This document shows positions 30,713-38,286 of a DNA stretch of 46,218 nt, piece after piece. Each line of letters starts with the position of its first letter. Positions within the stretch are counted from its first letter, which is position 1. The stretch is taken from NCBI GenBank assembly GCA_937870985.1, contig CALMXF010000407.1, forward strand, positions 1 through 46,218, in the 5' to 3' direction. A program made the translations under genes and the position numbers. This DNA is from an uncultured Chloroflexota bacterium (GTDB taxonomy: Bacteria > Chloroflexota > Chloroflexia > Thermomicrobiales > CFX8). The notes beneath the pieces are model-generated. The model did no database searches. It was not told the origin of the DNA and saw only the letters and a list, made by a program, of their open reading frames with translations.

Positions 30713-32161
30713 TTGCGTGCGCATTCCAGGATAACGATAACGGTCATACTCCTCATCACATTTGTCTCTGCCTGGCTAGCAATCCCGTCTGACTGGCTGA
30801 ATATTGCCGGGGCCAAAGACAACATCTACGTGCACCAGGGGCTCGACCTTCAGGGTGGTCTCCAGGTGGTGCTTGAGGCGCGGCCACCCGAGGGTCAGTC
30901 CGTCAGCCGCGACGAGCTCGTCGGGACACGCGACACGATTCAGCGTCGTGTCGGTGGACTCGGAGTCTCCGAGCCGCTGATCCAGACGCGCGGCAGCAAC
31001 CAGATTGTCGTCGAGCTGCCCGGCGTCAGCGATCCTCAGCAGGCTGTTGACTTGCTGAAGCAGACTGCGCTCCTCGAAATCATCGATCCACAGGGCCAAT
31101 ATCTCCCCGTCGGCACGAAGGTCAACACAACGCTCGGCTCGGCGCGACAACCCGGCGCGGATGGCACGCCAGCGACCGGCGAGGCGACGCCCGGCTCGAC
31201 ACCCGACGGTACGCCGGCGGCAACTCCCGGCGCAGGAGCCAGCACCGATCAGAATGCAGGCGGCCCAACATTCACCACGATTGTCTCCGGGGCCGACCTT
31301 GCCGACGCGTTTCCGACTCAGGACAGTGTCGGATCAATCGTCGTCGGATTCCGGCTCAAGCCGGAGGCAGCCGACAAGTTCTACGAGTACACAAGCACCC
31401 ATATCGGCCAGCCGATGTCGATCGTCGTCGACAACACCGTCATCAACTCCGCGACGATCCGTGACGCAATCTCCAACGAGGGTGTTATCAACGGGCTCAC
31501 CCCTCAGGAGGTCACCAATCTCGTCCTGCAACTGAAATCCGGCGCGCTGTCGGTGCCACTGGAGGTCGTTCAGAGCCGGACTATCGGCCCGTCGCTCGGG
31601 CAGGACTCGATCGACCAGTCCATCCTTGCCGGCCTCGTCGGGCTCGGGCTCGTCGCGCTGATGATGATCCTCTATTACCGACTGCCGGGTCTCCTGTCGG
31701 TCTTCGCATTGCTGATCTATACATCGATCGTCTTTGCGTTGTTCAAGCTCATCCCCGTGACGCTGACACTGGCCGGCATCGCTGGCTTCATTCTCTCGAT
31801 CGGCATGGCAGTCGACGCGAACGTCCTGATTTTCGCCCGGTTGAAAGATGAGCTCCGGCTTGGACGGCCTATTCCGGAAGCAATCGAGGCGGGATTCGAC
31901 CACGCCTGGCCATCGATTCGCGACTCCAACATCTCAACGATGATCACCTGCGCGATCCTGTTCTGGTTCGGCCGCTACACCGGCGCCAGCATCATCCAGG
32001 GTTTCGCGCTAACATTATTCGTTGGTGTCGTCGTGTCGATGTTCACCGCCATTGTCGTGACTCGAAATATGCTGCGCATTCTGCTTACGATCCGTCCGAT
32101 CAACGATCGCTGGTGGCTGGGAGTCGATCACGGGCAGGGTGTCCCCGCCCGAGCCGAGTAG
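30713..32161 (+). CDS. secD: Protein translocase subunit SecD
   Basis: SecD with SecF uses proton flow to pull exported proteins through SecYEG. The 482-residue product has one N-terminal membrane helix (about 7-25), the P1 extracytoplasmic domain with GLDLQGGLQVVLEA, and five C-terminal helices (about 305-465) including LAGIAGFILSIGMAVDANVLIFARLKDELRLG, which contains the conserved Asp of the proton path. The P1 domain contains an unusual Thr/Pro/Gly/Ala low-complexity insert (about residues 145-185). The start is TTG 30713, with a GGGGTGGG-rich stretch upstream. The secF gene follows after 31 bp. Confidence 0.95.
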   Translation: MRAHSRITITVILLITFVSAWLAIPSDWLNIAGAKDNIYVHQGLDLQGGLQVVLEARPPEGQSVSRDELVGTRDTIQRRVGGLGVSEPLIQTRGSNQIVVELPGVSDPQQAVDLLKQTALLEIIDPQGQYLPVGTKVNTTLGSARQPGADGTPATGEATPGSTPDGTPAATPGAGASTDQNAGGPTFTTIVSGADLADAFPTQDSVGSIVVGFRLKPEAADKFYEYTSTHIGQPMSIVVDNTVINSATIRDAISNEGVINGLTPQEVTNLVLQLKSGALSVPLEVVQSRTIGPSLGQDSIDQSILAGLVGLGLVALMMILYYRLPGLLSVFALLIYTSIVFALFKLIPVTLTLAGIAGFILSIGMAVDANVLIFARLKDELRLGRPIPEAIEAGFDHAWPSIRDSNISTMITCAILFWFGRYTGASIIQGFALTLFVGVVVSMFTAIVVTRNMLRILLTIRPINDRWWLGVDHGQGVPARAE

Positions 32162-32192
32162 GAGAAACCGACGTGACAGGGGTTGTAGTTCC

Positions 32193-33128
32193 ATGATCGA
32201 TATCGTCGGCAAACGACGCATCTGGTACTCCATCTCGGCGCTGCTGATCATTCCGGGGGTCATTGCCTTGCTGGTTCATGGTCTCAGCCTGGGCATCGAC
32301 TTCACTGGTGGCACCTCGTGGGAGCTGCAATTCCAGAAGCCGGTCGACTCACTGGAGGTTCGATCCATCCTGGCCACGCATGGCTACTCGGATTCGATCG
32401 TTCAAACCTCCCAGGACAACACGATCCTGATCCGGATGAAGGAGCTCAAAGAGGGTTCGCCAGAGAAGACCGCGATCGAGAACGAATTCCGAGCGCGATT
32501 CGGCGAATTCAAGGAACTGCAGATCGAGACAGTCGGCCCAACCGTCGGCAATGCGATCCGCAACCGGGCGATCCTTGCGGTGATTCTCGCATCGATCGGC
32601 GTGCTCTCCTACATCGCCTGGGCATTCCGGAACACCGATAGTCCTGTGCTCTATGGAACGGTCGCGATCGTCGCGATGCTCCACGATGTCCTGTTCGTCC
32701 TCGGCGTCTTTTCGATTCTGGGCTGGGTGGCAGACATCGAGGTCGATGCCCTGTTCGTCACCGCCGTGCTCACTGTCATGGGCTTCTCCGTTCACGATAC
32801 GATCGTGGTCTTTGACCGAATCCGCGAGAACCTCGGAAAACGAATCGCCCCGACGTTCGAGGAAACGGTCAACTACTCGGTCGCCCAGACGATGGTGCGC
32901 TCGTTGAACACGTCGCTCACCGTCATTCTGACGCTGGCGGCGCTGTATCTCTTCGGCGGCGAGTCGACGCGGTGGTTCGTGTTCGCCCTGCTGATCGGAG
33001 TTGCGGCCGGCACCTACTCCTCGATCTTCAACGCGAGCCAGTTGCTTGTCTCCTGGCGAAACGGGGAAGTCCAGCGCTTCTTCCTGTTCTGGCGCAAGCC
33101 ATCTGGCTCGCGCGCGCGCGCAACCTGA
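32193..33128 (+). CDS. secF: Protein translocase subunit SecF
   Basis: SecF is the smaller partner of SecD. The 311-residue product has the first helix (about 10-30), the short P4-type domain beginning GIDFTGGTSWELQFQ, and five C-terminal helices with AIVAMLHDVLFVLGVF, LFVTAVLTVMGFSVHDTIVVFDRIREN and the final SSIFNASQLLV. The functional Asp-containing motif of the SecDF family is intact. ATG 32193 is chosen; the longer reading from 32139 overlaps the secD end. The last residues are an Arg-Ala run encoded by a CG repeat. The next gene starts only 4 bp after the stop. Confidence 0.95.
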   Translation: MIDIVGKRRIWYSISALLIIPGVIALLVHGLSLGIDFTGGTSWELQFQKPVDSLEVRSILATHGYSDSIVQTSQDNTILIRMKELKEGSPEKTAIENEFRARFGEFKELQIETVGPTVGNAIRNRAILAVILASIGVLSYIAWAFRNTDSPVLYGTVAIVAMLHDVLFVLGVFSILGWVADIEVDALFVTAVLTVMGFSVHDTIVVFDRIRENLGKRIAPTFEETVNYSVAQTMVRSLNTSLTVILTLAALYLFGGESTRWFVFALLIGVAAGTYSSIFNASQLLVSWRNGEVQRFFLFWRKPSGSRARAT

Positions 33129-33132
33129 CCTG

Positions 33133-34500
33133 ATGGGTCAGTCTCCGAACGACGAAGCGCGACGCACCGCGGTTATCGGCGGCGGTATCGCGGGTCTGAC
33201 CGCGGCATACCGTCTCGCTCGCCAGGGGCACCGGGTGACACTCTGGGAGCAGGATGAACAGCTCGGAGGGTTGGCTGCCGCGTTCGAGCTACCGTCGGGC
33301 GCTGAGATCGAGAAGTTCTACCACCATCTGTTCATGAGCGATCGCGCGATCATCGAGCTGATGGAGGAACTCGGCATCGGCAGCCGCCTGCGTTGGATTG
33401 ACTCCAATGTCGGGTTCTTCTATGACGGACGGATCTACCCGCTCACAACTGCGACCGATCTGATCAGGCTACCGTTCATTCCAGTGGTGGATCGTGTCCG
33501 GCTGGGTCTGATCACCCTCTATCTCCAGCGCATCAGCACGTCATCCGGCGGCTGGAAGCGGTTCGAACGGGTTACAGCCTGGGAATGGCTGCGACGGACT
33601 GCGGGCCAACGGGCCTTCAATCGCGTCTGGGGAGCCCAGCTCCGGGCGAAATTCGGCCCACGCGCGCCCGAGATTGCGATGGCGTGGTTCTGGAACAAGA
33701 TCTTTCTCCGAACCCAGTCACGACCGGGCCTCCTGGCTCGCGAGCAGTTGGGCTACATAGATGGTAGCTTCAATGTTCTGATCGATCGTCTCGCCGATGC
33801 TTGTCGGGAACTTGGCGTCGATATTCGCACAGGCACTGGCGTCGAGGCACTCGAACGGCACGACGAAAGCGCCAGCCAGTTCACGCTGGTCGGCGCCGAC
33901 GGCCGGCGTGACGATGCCGATATCGTCGTGGCAACTATCCCATCGCCACTCATCATGCGTCTGATCCCTGATATGCCTGCAGCATACGCTCAGCAGCTTA
34001 CGTCAATGATTTATCAGGGCGCGATCGTGATCCTCCTGCAGCTCGACCGCAAGCTGTCAGATATCTACTGGCTCAACATCGGCGACGACCGGCTCCCATT
34101 CACCGGGATTATCGAGCACACCAACCTACTCGACCCCGCTGACTACGGAGGAGCTCATCTGGTCTATGTTGGAAAGTATCTCGACTGGGACCACCCGTTC
34201 GTCACAATGACCGACGACGAGCTTCGCCACGAGGTCGTGCCAAAGCTTCGTCTTGTGAACCCCGGATTCGATGATAGCTGGATCGAGCGAATGTGGGTCT
34301 TCCGCGCTCGAGCAGCTCAGCCGATCGTCACACTCGAGTATTCGGAGAAGGTCCCGTCACATCGATCCCCGATTGCCGGCCTCTACGTCGCCAACATGTC
34401 CCAGATCTATCCGGAGGATCGGGGCACCAACTACGCGGTCGATCTCGGGAACCGCATCGCCGAAATCATCGACGAGGATCTCGCCGCCGGGAGTGCCTGA
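33133..34500 (+). CDS. FAD-dependent amine-oxidase-type oxidoreductase
   Basis: The 455-residue flavoprotein starts with the dinucleotide-binding motif VIGGGIAGLTAAYRLARQGHRVTLWEQDEQLGGLAA, the pattern of protoporphyrinogen oxidase, phytoene desaturase and related enzymes. It has a mid-protein FAD segment (VVATIPSPLIMRLIPD) and a C-terminal GLYVANMSQIYPEDRGTNYAVDLG, the flavin ribityl-binding signature. The YPEDRG ending is common in glycan- or lipid-linked UDP-galactopyranose-mutase-like relatives, but the substrate cannot be told. ATG 33133 follows secF by 4 bp, so it is co-transcribed with secDF; the longer reading from 33001 overlaps secF. Confidence 0.82.
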   Translation: MGQSPNDEARRTAVIGGGIAGLTAAYRLARQGHRVTLWEQDEQLGGLAAAFELPSGAEIEKFYHHLFMSDRAIIELMEELGIGSRLRWIDSNVGFFYDGRIYPLTTATDLIRLPFIPVVDRVRLGLITLYLQRISTSSGGWKRFERVTAWEWLRRTAGQRAFNRVWGAQLRAKFGPRAPEIAMAWFWNKIFLRTQSRPGLLAREQLGYIDGSFNVLIDRLADACRELGVDIRTGTGVEALERHDESASQFTLVGADGRRDDADIVVATIPSPLIMRLIPDMPAAYAQQLTSMIYQGAIVILLQLDRKLSDIYWLNIGDDRLPFTGIIEHTNLLDPADYGGAHLVYVGKYLDWDHPFVTMTDDELRHEVVPKLRLVNPGFDDSWIERMWVFRARAAQPIVTLEYSEKVPSHRSPIAGLYVANMSQIYPEDRGTNYAVDLGNRIAEIIDEDLAAGSA

Positions 34501-34559: not shown

Positions 34560-34635
34560 GCGCCCGTAGCTCAGCGGATAGAGCGCTTGCCTCCGGAGCA
34601 AGAGGCCACAGGTTCGAGTCCTGTCGGGCGTACCA
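34560..34635 (+). tRNA. tRNA-Arg (anticodon CCG)
   Basis: The 76-nt cloverleaf is complete. The acceptor stem is GCGCCCG (34560-34566) with CGGGCGT (34625-34631; first pair G-T), and the 3' end ACCA (34632-34635) is encoded. The D arm carries GCTCAGC...GAGC, and the anticodon loop CTCCGGA on a CTTGC/GCAAG stem gives anticodon CCG (reads CGG). The T arm is ACAGG-TTCGAGT-CCTGT. Anticodon and stems all pair, so the call is secure. Confidence 0.97.
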
Positions 34636-34882: not shown

Positions 34883-34921
34883 TGGACATAGGGTGTACGT
34901 ACACTCTATACTCGTGAGTGT
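34883..34921 (+). promoter_or_regulatory. Bactofilin promoter with nested palindromes
   Basis: TGGACA (34883-34888) and TATACT (34907-34912) have 18 bp spacing. The spacer holds the perfect 12-bp palindrome GTGTACGTACAC (34893-34904). A second inverted repeat, ACACTC (34901-34906) with GAGTGT (34916-34921), brackets the -10. Alternating GTGT/ACAC half-sites suggest a repressor that can bind in two registers. The remaining leader to 35049 is about 130 bp and shows no clear fold. Confidence 0.6.
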
Positions 34922-35048: not shown

Positions 35049-35579
35049 ATGGTATTCCGTAAAGAAAGTCGCACGGATTCATTTCAGCGTCAGATCTCGA
35101 CACTGAGGCAGCAGCTTGGTTCCGATGAGGACGAAGTCGACGACGCTGAGGAGTTGCCGACCTATTCGGCGCCCGCAGAGGCCGCCGCACGATCGCCATT
35201 GCCCTCGATCGAGAGTCAACGTCGCCATCAACCACCACGAATGTCCGACGCTTCGACCGGAGTAGTGTCCGCGAACTCCAGCTGGAGCGGGACGCTGCGA
35301 TCCGAAGGATCGATCCAGATCTTCGGGACAATCGAGGGTGAGCTGAGCGCGAGCGATGAGATCTATGTCGCTGAGGGCGCGACAGTCGATGCGCGCATTC
35401 GTGCGCGCACCATCATTGTGGCCGGCGCGGTGACTGGCACGATCGAGTGTCTCGGCCGCCTGGAGGTGATGCCGTCAGGCTCGATTTCCGGCGATGTGAC
35501 ATCGCCGACGCTCATCGTTCACGAAGGCGCCACCGTCGAGGGTGACGTGAAGATGCAGTCGCCCACGCCGGTCGAGTAG
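35049..35579 (+). CDS. Bactofilin family protein, first copy
   Basis: Bactofilins are polymer-forming cytoskeletal proteins that build beta-helical filaments and scaffold envelope enzymes. The 176-residue product has a charged, Ser/Pro-rich N-terminal tail (about 1-65) followed by the repeat-rich right-handed beta-helix core (about 70-170): IQIFGTIEGELSASDEIYVAEGATVDARIRARTIIVAGAVTGTIECLGRLEV and so on, with a hydrophobic every-other-residue rhythm. The C-terminal tail is short. ATG 35049 follows GGGAGGCAGGCA. It lies 34 bp before a second bactofilin. Confidence 0.9.
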   Translation: MVFRKESRTDSFQRQISTLRQQLGSDEDEVDDAEELPTYSAPAEAAARSPLPSIESQRRHQPPRMSDASTGVVSANSSWSGTLRSEGSIQIFGTIEGELSASDEIYVAEGATVDARIRARTIIVAGAVTGTIECLGRLEVMPSGSISGDVTSPTLIVHEGATVEGDVKMQSPTPVE

Positions 35580-35613
35580 CGCCAGCGCGCCACGATAAGA
35601 GGAGCCAGCCACC

Positions 35614-36192
35614 ATGAGTATGCGCACAGCAACCGTACCGCCAGACACGCTAGCCGCTCAGTCACTCGAGGGCAGCCGGTCACTCATCGACCGGCACACC
35701 ACGGTCGAGGGAACGCTGGCGACACCGCACGATCTGCGAATTGAGGGGCGCGTCACCGGAGTTCTGCAATGTGACGGTGTACTGTATGTCGCGGCCGGGG
35801 CCGAGGTCGATGCTGATATCGCCGCAACCGACGCGATTGTCGAAGGGACGATTGCTGGGTCAATCACATGCTCTGGCCGGCTCGAGGTTCGTTCGACCGG
35901 CGTTGTGCAGGCCGTTGTCAAAACGCATCGTCTGGTCATCCACGAGGGCGCAGTCCTCGAAGGTCGCCTCGACATGGAGTCTGTATCCGACGCCGCGGAA
36001 ACTGATGCTGCTGAAGGCTCGGTGGAGGCTCCCGCTGAAGTGGCCGATTCCAGCGGTGAATCTGCCTCATCATATTCGTATCTCCGGAATTTCTCGTCAC
36101 CAGCAGCCTCATCCTCCCGGGGTGACACGGACTTGCCCGGGCAAGAGGCTCGTGATGACTCGGACGATGACACAGGTAACAATCCGACATAG
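35614..36192 (+). CDS. Bactofilin family protein, second copy
   Basis: The 192-residue protein is a second bactofilin with the core at about 25-130: TTVEGTLATPHDLRIEGRVTGVLQCDGVLYV, then AEVDADIAATDAIVEGTIAGSITCSGRLEV and HRLVIHEGAVLEGRLDME. Unlike the first copy the tail is C-terminal: about 60 residues rich in Glu, Ala, Ser and Asp. The two copies may co-polymerise while presenting different tails to partners (inference). AGAGGAGCC upstream of ATG 35614 is a good ribosome site. It is the second gene of the bactofilin operon. Confidence 0.9.
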   Translation: MSMRTATVPPDTLAAQSLEGSRSLIDRHTTVEGTLATPHDLRIEGRVTGVLQCDGVLYVAAGAEVDADIAATDAIVEGTIAGSITCSGRLEVRSTGVVQAVVKTHRLVIHEGAVLEGRLDMESVSDAAETDAAEGSVEAPAEVADSSGESASSYSYLRNFSSPAASSSRGDTDLPGQEARDDSDDDTGNNPT

Positions 36193-36221
36193 CTCGATCT
36201 GCCATCGTCAGGCCCTCGTGC

Positions 36222-36227
36222 TATACT
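36222..36227 (+). promoter_or_regulatory. -10 box before the SH3 protein gene
   Basis: TATACT is a good -10 in the 163-bp gap after the second bactofilin; no convincing -35 lies upstream. It suggests the SH3 gene can be transcribed separately from the bactofilins. Confidence 0.35.
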
Positions 36228-36355
36228 CGTCACCGGTCGATGATTTCGATACGCCCTGCGCGATCCTCGCGGACGCTGGTGCGTGTCATTGTGCTCAGTC
36301 ATTCGACTGCGACGATTGAGAAGTGGCGCGAAGCCAGCCGGTGATGGGGGGCGGA

Positions 36356-37252
36356 ATGTCCGGGCGCAAGTGCAGCACCTGCAAGCACTACGAGCCGGCG
36401 CCGATCTGGCGCAGGGGATGGTGTCGCAACCCGGCCCTGTATGCACCCCAGCAGAACCATCTCGTGTATGAAGACGATCTCGATTGCGAGCGCGGCATGG
36501 GAAACTACTGGGAACCCGCCGACGCCACGGGCCAGATCCGCCCCTACATCCCGCTTCACCCGGTTTCCGATGATTCCGCGAACCCCAGCAGAGTTATCTC
36601 GACGCACGCAGGCCAGCCGATCTATTCGGTGTCTGGTTCTTCCGGCTATGGCAGCGATCCCGATGACGACTATCCCTCGGCCGGCGAGGAGCTCTCTCGA
36701 CCAGGCGGGGCTAGCGGACGGGATCCCGGACATTATGCCGAAGGGCGTTATTGGACAGATTACCTTCGCATCGGCGCGCCGATCCTTGGTGTGATCCTGA
36801 TCCTCGCGCTGTTCTGGTTCTGGGCGAACGCATTCTGGGGTGGCAACAAGAATACCCCCGCGATTGGCGGGACGCCACAAGCCACGCTGTCATCCATCAC
36901 CGCATCGCCAGTAGCAACCAACGGAGTTGGCACGGGCGGGTCGCCGATCATCCTCACAACCCCGCCGGCCGGTGCAGCTACCCATCCTCCGGGCGTAGCG
37001 ACGAAGCCGCCAACCGGCAGTGGCACGATTGCGATAGGCTCAACCGTCACAGTCGCTAACTCCGGTGGAACCGGTGTGAACTTCCGGAGCGAGCCATCCA
37101 CCGATGCTGAAATCGTCGATATCTTGCTCGATGGCACCGAGCTCACGGTCGTCGATGGTCCGCTGGATGCCGAGGGCTACACATGGTGGCAGGTCGAAGG
37201 CGCCGCGGGGACCGGCTGGCTCGTCCAGGACTACCTGAAGGCCAAACCCTAG
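36356..37252 (+). CDS. Single-pass membrane protein with cytoplasmic Cys motif and external SH3 domain
   Basis: The 298-residue protein combines a short N-terminal zinc-finger-like motif ([21 protein letters not shown], then DDLDCERG; four Cys), a variable polar segment, one hydrophobic helix (about 142-163) and a Thr/Pro/Gly-rich linker. A C-terminal bacterial SH3 (SH3b) domain follows (about 225-297: [36 protein letters not shown]). The N-terminus should be cytoplasmic and the SH3b outside, where it may bind cell-wall peptides. ATG 36356 follows GGGGGG; GTG 36323 and ATG 36344 are alternatives. It follows two bactofilins, so it is a candidate cytoskeleton-to-wall linker (inference). Confidence 0.8.
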
Positions 37253-37337: not shown

Positions 37338-37446
37338 TGCGCCGGATAAATACGCACGCGCATCGGCGGGCATCGGGTGTGACCGGCAAGGCTGCCGGGA
37401 CGATGTCCGATTCACGGCGCGCGGAGGAAAAACACCGGGAGGTATG

Positions 37447-38286
37447 ATGGTCGCGAAGGTCGCACGCGAAGACACCCAGGTCACAATGAAACAACTGCTG
37501 GAGGCCGGGGTTCACTTTGGCCACCAGACGAAGCGCTGGAATCCGAAGATGCGCCCGTACATCTTCGGCGAGCGCAACGGCATTCATGTCATCGACCTCC
37601 ATCAGACAGCCAAGCTGCTCGAAGAAGCGCAGGACTTCCTGGCAGATCTCGCCGTGCGCGGTGGGAAGATCGTCTTCGTCGGCACCAAGAAGCAGGCTCA
37701 GGCGACTGTCGAGGAGCAGGCAAGCCGTTGTGGCATGTTCTATGTGAACCGCCGGTGGCTCGGCGGCACATTGACGAACTTCGTCACGATTCGATCCCGT
37801 CTCCAATATCTGCGGAATCTCGAGCGTCAATCGCTCTCCGGCGAGCTCGCCTATCTTCCCAAGCAGGAGGCGCAGGCCAAGGAGCAAGAGCTCGAGAAGC
37901 TCCAGCGAACACTCGGCGGACTCAAGGAGCTCGCCCAGCGGCCGGCGGCGATCGTGATCGTGGATCCGCGGCGGGAGGAGCTCGCAATCAAGGAGGCCAG
38001 CCGGCTTGGCATCCCGATTGTGGCAATGGTTGACACGAACTGCGACCCTGACCCGATCAATTTCGTGATTCCATCGAACGACGACGCTATCCGGTCGGTT
38101 CGACTCGTGTTGTCGAAGTTGGCCGATGCCATCATCGAGGGAAGCACGCGCCTCGAAATCGCGATTGCCGACGAGCAAATGGACTCGCGGGGCCCTGCTG
38201 AGGACTACGGCTATCCGGGCGATGAGGCCGAGGAGAGCGACGAGGCCGGCAGCGACGGGGCTGCAGGGCGGTCACGCCGCCGCTAA
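37447..38286 (+). CDS. rpsB: 30S ribosomal protein S2
   Basis: S2 is a late-assembling small-subunit protein. The 279-residue product has the family start [22 protein letters not shown] near residue 14, the middle [15 protein letters not shown] and [34 protein letters not shown], and the PSNDDA motif. An acidic/Arg-rich tail of about 45 residues follows the conserved part. ATG 37447 is preferred (GGGAGG four bases upstream); 37444 and 37486 are alternatives. It heads the translation/lipid block with tsf, pyrH and frr. Confidence 0.97.

Follow-up and report, generated by a model that had tools for sequence, protein, structure and literature searches.

Results

Two bactofilins and a bitopic SH3b protein

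The window (the whole stretch of DNA that was analysed, 46,218 nt of an uncultured Chloroflexota bacterium of the order Thermomicrobiales) carries two bactofilin genes, here called BAC1 and BAC2, followed on the same strand by a gene for a bitopic protein with four cysteines, a transmembrane (TM) helix and an SH3b domain (the SH3 gene), and then by rpsB. The features are as follows.

34883..34912, + strand: promoter-like site upstream of BAC1, TGGACA-18-TATACT (consensus scan)
35049..35579, + strand: BAC1, bactofilin with a 71-aa N-terminal tail (PF04519, E 2.3e-23; its orthologue heads the conserved block)
35049..35063, + strand: MVFRK, BAC1 N-terminus, candidate membrane-targeting sequence (orthologue pattern, likeness to MFSKKKK)
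35082..35117, + strand: FQRQISxLRQQL segment of the BAC1 N-terminal tail (in orthologues of all three families in which the genes are co-located)
35262..35549, + strand: BAC1 bactofilin domain (residues 72-167 of 176)
35614..36192, + strand: BAC2, bactofilin with a 73-aa acidic C-terminal tail (PF04519, E 1.2e-24)
35680..35970, + strand: BAC2 bactofilin domain (residues 23-119 of 192)
36070..36093, + strand: SYSYLRNF, BAC2 tail motif, local form of (S/T)FIRRFGGPExxW (orthologue pattern)
36199..36227, + strand: promoter-like site of the SH3 gene with a TG-extended -10, TGCTATACT (consensus scan)
36356..37252, + strand: bitopic Cys/TM/SH3b protein, 298 aa (Pfam, alignment, AF2, charge bias)
36356..36526, + strand: four-Cys module C-x2-C-x13-C-x20-C, candidate HiPIP-like fold (invariant Cys; HiPIP-type matches)
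36746..36772, + strand: conserved juxtamembrane RYWTDYLRI (alignment; diverged in family f2)
36770..36838, + strand: transmembrane helix, N-in (AF2 helix 133-161; charge bias in 41/41)
37073..37240, + strand: extracytoplasmic SH3b domain (PF08239, E 1.9e-9)
37441..38286, + strand: rpsB, next gene of the conserved block (PF00318, E 4.8e-93)

The two bactofilins score 82.7 and 86.9 bits against PF04519 (curated cut-off 27.9) and the bitopic protein 38.0 bits against SH3_3, PF08239 (cut-off 27), which upholds the sequence-only reading of a bactofilin pair ahead of such a protein; the whole source assembly has no further bactofilin. The opposite tails described in that reading are also there. BAC1 has 71 residues N-terminal and 9 C-terminal to its domain, and BAC2 has 22 and 73, with 18 D/E versus 3 K/R in the C-terminal tail. 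Most BAC1 orthologues start with M(V/I)FR(K/R) (a loose pattern finds it in 47 of 53), which resembles the published bactofilin membrane-targeting consensus MFSKKKK (PMC12448750); BAC2 has no start of this type. The BAC2 tail motif reads TFIRRFGGPExxW in family f5, with variants in other families; by pattern it was found at 37 of 53 loci, plus three near matches, and it is absent from family f2 and from the Thermomicrobium/Thermalbibacter group. We infer a division of labour in which BAC1 would bind the membrane and BAC2 a partner. That the SH3 protein binds to the tail motif is unsupported, as Thermomicrobium has lost the motif and keeps the SH3 gene.

Translation of the bitopic protein starts at the ATG at 36356, which is preceded by a conserved ribosome site, GGGGGCGG; a GTG start at 36323 is ruled out by that site and by the orthologue alignment. 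The AF2 model has a single helix (residues 133-161) and an SH3b fold (230-296, pLDDT 86-98), and the best PDB profile matches of the latter are bacterial cell-wall SH3b domains. All 41 relatives compared have a K/R surplus on the N-terminal side of the helix (3.1 versus 0.5 per 20 aa), so the protein should lie N-in/C-out, with the Cys module in the cytoplasm and the SH3b domain outside, as had been read from the sequence at first. In the same-genus genome G003, an insertion of 2 nt within the disordered linker interrupts the orthologue of the SH3 gene (L069:8803-9797), either through an assembly error or as a true frameshift.

Across 33 loci, the median intergenic gap is 48 nt between BAC1 and BAC2 and 170 nt between BAC2 and the SH3 gene. 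The promoter-like block ahead of BAC1 is conserved in G003, where the surrounding DNA has diverged. Since the BAC2-SH3 gap also holds a promoter-like site, whose CGTGCTATACTCGTCACCGG is identical in G003, the SH3 gene can probably be transcribed alone as well, judging from these sequence elements.

Conservation of gene order and the question of passive linkage

The order BAC1-BAC2-Cys/TM/SH3-rpsB-tsf-pyrH is conserved in 51 Thermomicrobiales genomes, the window's included, although some copies in this count are truncated by contig ends (L092 within BAC2, several others ahead of rpsB). With so many genomes sharing it, the order of the three genes is no accident. The genomes come from three families, between which the proteins are about 35-50% identical. 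A scan of 84,980 species (genome_contigs) found 59 relatives of the Cys/TM/SH3 protein. At 41 of 43 testable Thermomicrobiales loci, the bactofilins lie directly upstream, and the 2 exceptions both belong to family f2 (G102 and G103), in which the bactofilin pair and the SH3 gene are both retained at separate loci. The other 16 relatives comprise 2 cut at contig ends, 9 from neighbouring lineages and 5 two-copy paralogues; none of the 9 from neighbouring orders (0/9) has a bactofilin within the stretch read. The expectation that the SH3 protein would mostly be found with bactofilins is thus borne out inside the order and fails outside it. The association is real and old within Thermomicrobiales, but it is not obligatory for the protein family. 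One further genome, G104 (f3), has neither the bactofilin pair nor the SH3 gene, and it retains the two-copy Cys gene described below.

These data bear on a rival explanation, namely that the SH3 protein is an envelope protein that works independently of bactofilins, in a block that persists through the housekeeping linkage rpsB-tsf-pyrH. No genome examined has the bactofilins together with the SH3 gene at a site away from rpsB; the association is therefore inseparable from linkage to rpsB and may be passive. As a neighbour, rpsB is as constant as the bactofilins are, the SH3 gene has its apparent conserved promoter, relatives outside the order have no bactofilins nearby, and in f2 all the parts are separated. 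Against this, in the 51 genomes of three families no other gene ever takes the place between BAC2 and rpsB, whereas the genes upstream of BAC1 vary by family, and the other location of the Cys module is also beside a cytoskeletal gene, rodZ. On balance we regard purely passive linkage as rather unlikely.

Upstream of the block, secD, secF and an FAD amine-oxidase-like gene (30713-34500) show synteny limited to family f1 and part of f4. A tRNA-Arg(CCG) gene at 34560-34635 has the amine-oxidase-like gene on one side and BAC1 on the other.

A second setting of the module, beside rodZ

Most Thermomicrobiales genomes have a paralogue in which a long, probably disordered stretch connects two Cys modules (L198:5923-8155 and L135:6268-8710; also L199, L200, L201 and L202), and the next gene downstream encodes RodZ (HTH_25 plus RodZ_C). 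Like the bactofilins' proposed partner, RodZ connects cytoskeleton and wall, as the anchor of the cell's other shape-giving skeleton; neither of its two domains occurs in the window protein, and what the two proteins share is that the neighbour of the rodZ gene encodes the same Cys module. A strong rodZ match is present in 49 genomes; in 46 of these a Cys module lies upstream of rodZ on the same strand and contig, and in 44 of the 46 it is within 500 nt of the rodZ HTH. At L198, the two-module gene and rodZ form a two-gene unit flanked by oppositely oriented genes. All but one of the 61 genomes of the order have MreB. The module was found in 16 of 400 Chloroflexota; 12 of these are Thermomicrobiales, and the remainder include three weak partial matches. 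One lineage-confined Cys module thus adjoins genes of both cytoskeletons, and this position, unexpected and not part of the sequence-only reading, is the strongest guilt-by-association argument for a role in morphogenesis. In the source genome, neither a second Cys gene nor rodZ was found; an assembly gap is the likely explanation, because the assembly is fragmented (447 contigs, 89% complete).

The fold of the four-Cys module

The only cysteines of the bitopic protein, at residues 6, 9, 23 and 44, are invariant across 41 aligned sequences, and a comparison of the module with that of G003 (dN 0.02, dS 1.12, the latter near saturation) indicates strong purifying selection. Foldseek with the AF2 model of the module gave 59 matches, of which the top three are glycyl-radical-enzyme small-subunit chains and five are HiPIPs, with E values of 0.28-4.6 for these two classes. 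The top PDB match of the sequence profile, at a weak E of 0.22, is PioC, a HiPIP. Pfam, run on 33 members, returned HIPIP in 5 and HPIP_like in 4 (best E 0.0011, weak), and NCBIfam called one member a glycyl-radical small subunit. In hhalign, the module gave 35% against a HiPIP alignment and 63% against a glycyl-radical small-subunit alignment, both of them small and assembled with two query sequences, one of which matched 2hip almost completely and the other 2y8n_B as a homologue. The controls gave at most 9.8% for column shuffles that kept the Cys (60 trials each) and 0.4% for rubredoxin. The window's own module has no match in Pfam, NCBIfam or PHROGs, and the AF2 model of the isolated module, at pLDDT 66, is too low in confidence to serve as sole support.

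The structure and profile matches are individually weak, but they agree, and our best guess is that the module has a HiPIP-like [4Fe-4S] fold. It shares with HiPIPs and glycyl-radical small subunits (PF01355, PF18524) the four Cys in a C-x2-C-(aromatic)...G-x-C...C pattern; it differs from them in that it occurs fused to TM/SH3b or, beside rodZ, in duplicate, and the similarity is weak. A phage or plasmid origin was rejected, since tblastn matches were at chance level only.

The sequence-only reading had called the module a zinc finger, a label that the structure and profile searches, weak as each match is, do not favour. In short cytoplasmic domains four Cys are often zinc ligands, and on that general ground an ordinary zinc-binding interaction domain might be proposed here. 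However, the C-x2-C-x13-C-x20-C spacing does not have the paired CxxC...CxxC of zinc ribbons, and the rubredoxin control falls far below the values for the HiPIP and glycyl-radical alignments, so that we consider a zinc domain unlikely. A bolder proposal is that a HiPIP-like [4Fe-4S] cluster responds to oxidation or iron, acting as a switch for the assembly or the positioning of bactofilins and MreB/RodZ. The strict conservation of the four Cys is consistent with this, as is the agreement on HiPIP-type matches among fold search, PDB profile, Pfam, NCBIfam and hhalign. Yet the best Pfam E value belongs to one alignment member and every match is weak, the window's module has no Pfam match and a model of low pLDDT, no redox partner gene was seen, and a purely structural cluster would appear identical. 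We hold such a sensor to be very doubtful.

Discussion

The three genes may specify a bactofilin scaffold attached to the membrane, together with the protein that anchors it to the wall, a reading to which we give about even chances. BAC1, with its candidate N-terminal membrane-targeting peptide, and BAC2 would make up filaments, or jointly decorate them, along the inner side of the membrane, BAC2 contributing no targeting peptide but a long acidic C-terminal tail with a conserved aromatic/Arg motif. The bitopic protein would meet the bactofilins through its cytoplasmic part, comprising the four-Cys module, a disordered linker and RYWTDYLRI, cross the membrane, and bring its SH3b domain to the peptidoglycan on a P/T-rich linker. 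In this way it would set the sites at which the filaments work on the wall, the part that Csd5 plays for CcmA in Helicobacter. The module, probably a HiPIP-like [4Fe-4S] fold, would serve as a docking or redox-responsive element, and the two-copy paralogue would probably play the equivalent part for MreB/RodZ. The domains, the topology, the gene order and the re-use of the module beside rodZ are observed; binding partners, peptidoglycan binding, the cluster and a function in shape we infer.

The connector reading draws support from the domains and topology, the conserved block, the invariant Cys, the conserved juxtamembrane residues, the MTS-like start of BAC1, the presence of the module upstream of rodZ, and the functional precedents Csd5-CcmA (PMC9507126) and BacA-PbpC (PMC12448750). 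It is weakened by family f2, where the parts lie apart, by the relatives in other orders with no bactofilin nearby, by the SH3 gene's apparent promoter, and by Thermomicrobium, which has no BAC2 tail motif though the block is conserved.

The closest functional parallel is Csd5 of H. pylori, which is bitopic, attaches to peptidoglycan by its SH3 domain and, by its cytoplasmic part, binds the bactofilin CcmA and brings it to the envelope; Csd5 was termed unique to Helicobacter, with other transmembrane proteins expected elsewhere (PMC9507126). The window protein has the same plan of cytoplasmic N-terminal part, single TM helix and external SH3 domain (Pfam, AF2, charge), so that a cytoskeleton-to-wall connector, as first proposed, fits the topology and the stable gene association, but with Csd5 as precedent it would not be new. 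The window protein differs in its four-Cys module, in having two bactofilins and in the adjacency of the genes, and its binding to the bactofilins is a prediction from that adjacency. The scan of 84,980 genomes, an indirect test of Csd5 kinship, returned Chloroflexota loci only, and the two proteins are apparently unrelated in sequence. By analogy of topology the window protein would work like Csd5; membership in the Csd5 family is unsupported at present.

In the BacA-LmdC operons of other bacteria, the bitopic envelope protein encoded beside a bactofilin is an M23 peptidase (PMC10945521). The window protein likewise sits beside bactofilins, but it has an SH3b domain and no peptidase domain: Pfam gives SH3_3 only, and there is no M23 match on the window's contig. 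M23 peptidases are present in all 61 genomes of the order, and that of the source genome adjoins mreB, not the bactofilin locus. There it lies just upstream of mreB (G000:C65:1012-2535), as it does in others of the order (e.g., G118:C1:838092-839437). Caulobacter BacA-PbpC offers another parallel, with an N-terminal MTS on the bactofilin and a bitopic client, PbpC, that BacA binds via its cytoplasmic N-terminal tail (PMC12448750); unlike PbpC, the window protein has no enzymatic domain. The open-access literature on bactofilin in Chloroflexi or Sphaerobacter, when searched, yielded no work on this locus.

Taking the two settings of the module together, one could suppose that in Thermomicrobiales a lineage-specific HiPIP-like [4Fe-4S] module is an adaptor shared by the two shape-determining cytoskeletons, fused to TM-SH3b for the bactofilins and doubled in the RodZ partner of MreB. 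We think this improbable; if true, an iron-sulphur cluster would enter bacterial morphogenesis.

To our knowledge, the way in which bactofilin filaments are tied to the wall has been worked out for few species, most of them diderms of the Pseudomonadota and Campylobacterota. Another TM-SH3b protein associated with bactofilins, in a distant phylum and with no apparent relation to Csd5, would suggest that this solution arose more than once. The Cys module is the most interesting and unexplained part of a real, conserved locus. Its likeness to HiPIPs makes one ask whether a protein of cell shape might contain a metal cluster, and its place beside both bactofilin and RodZ provides a testable handle on possible coordination of the two cytoskeletons.
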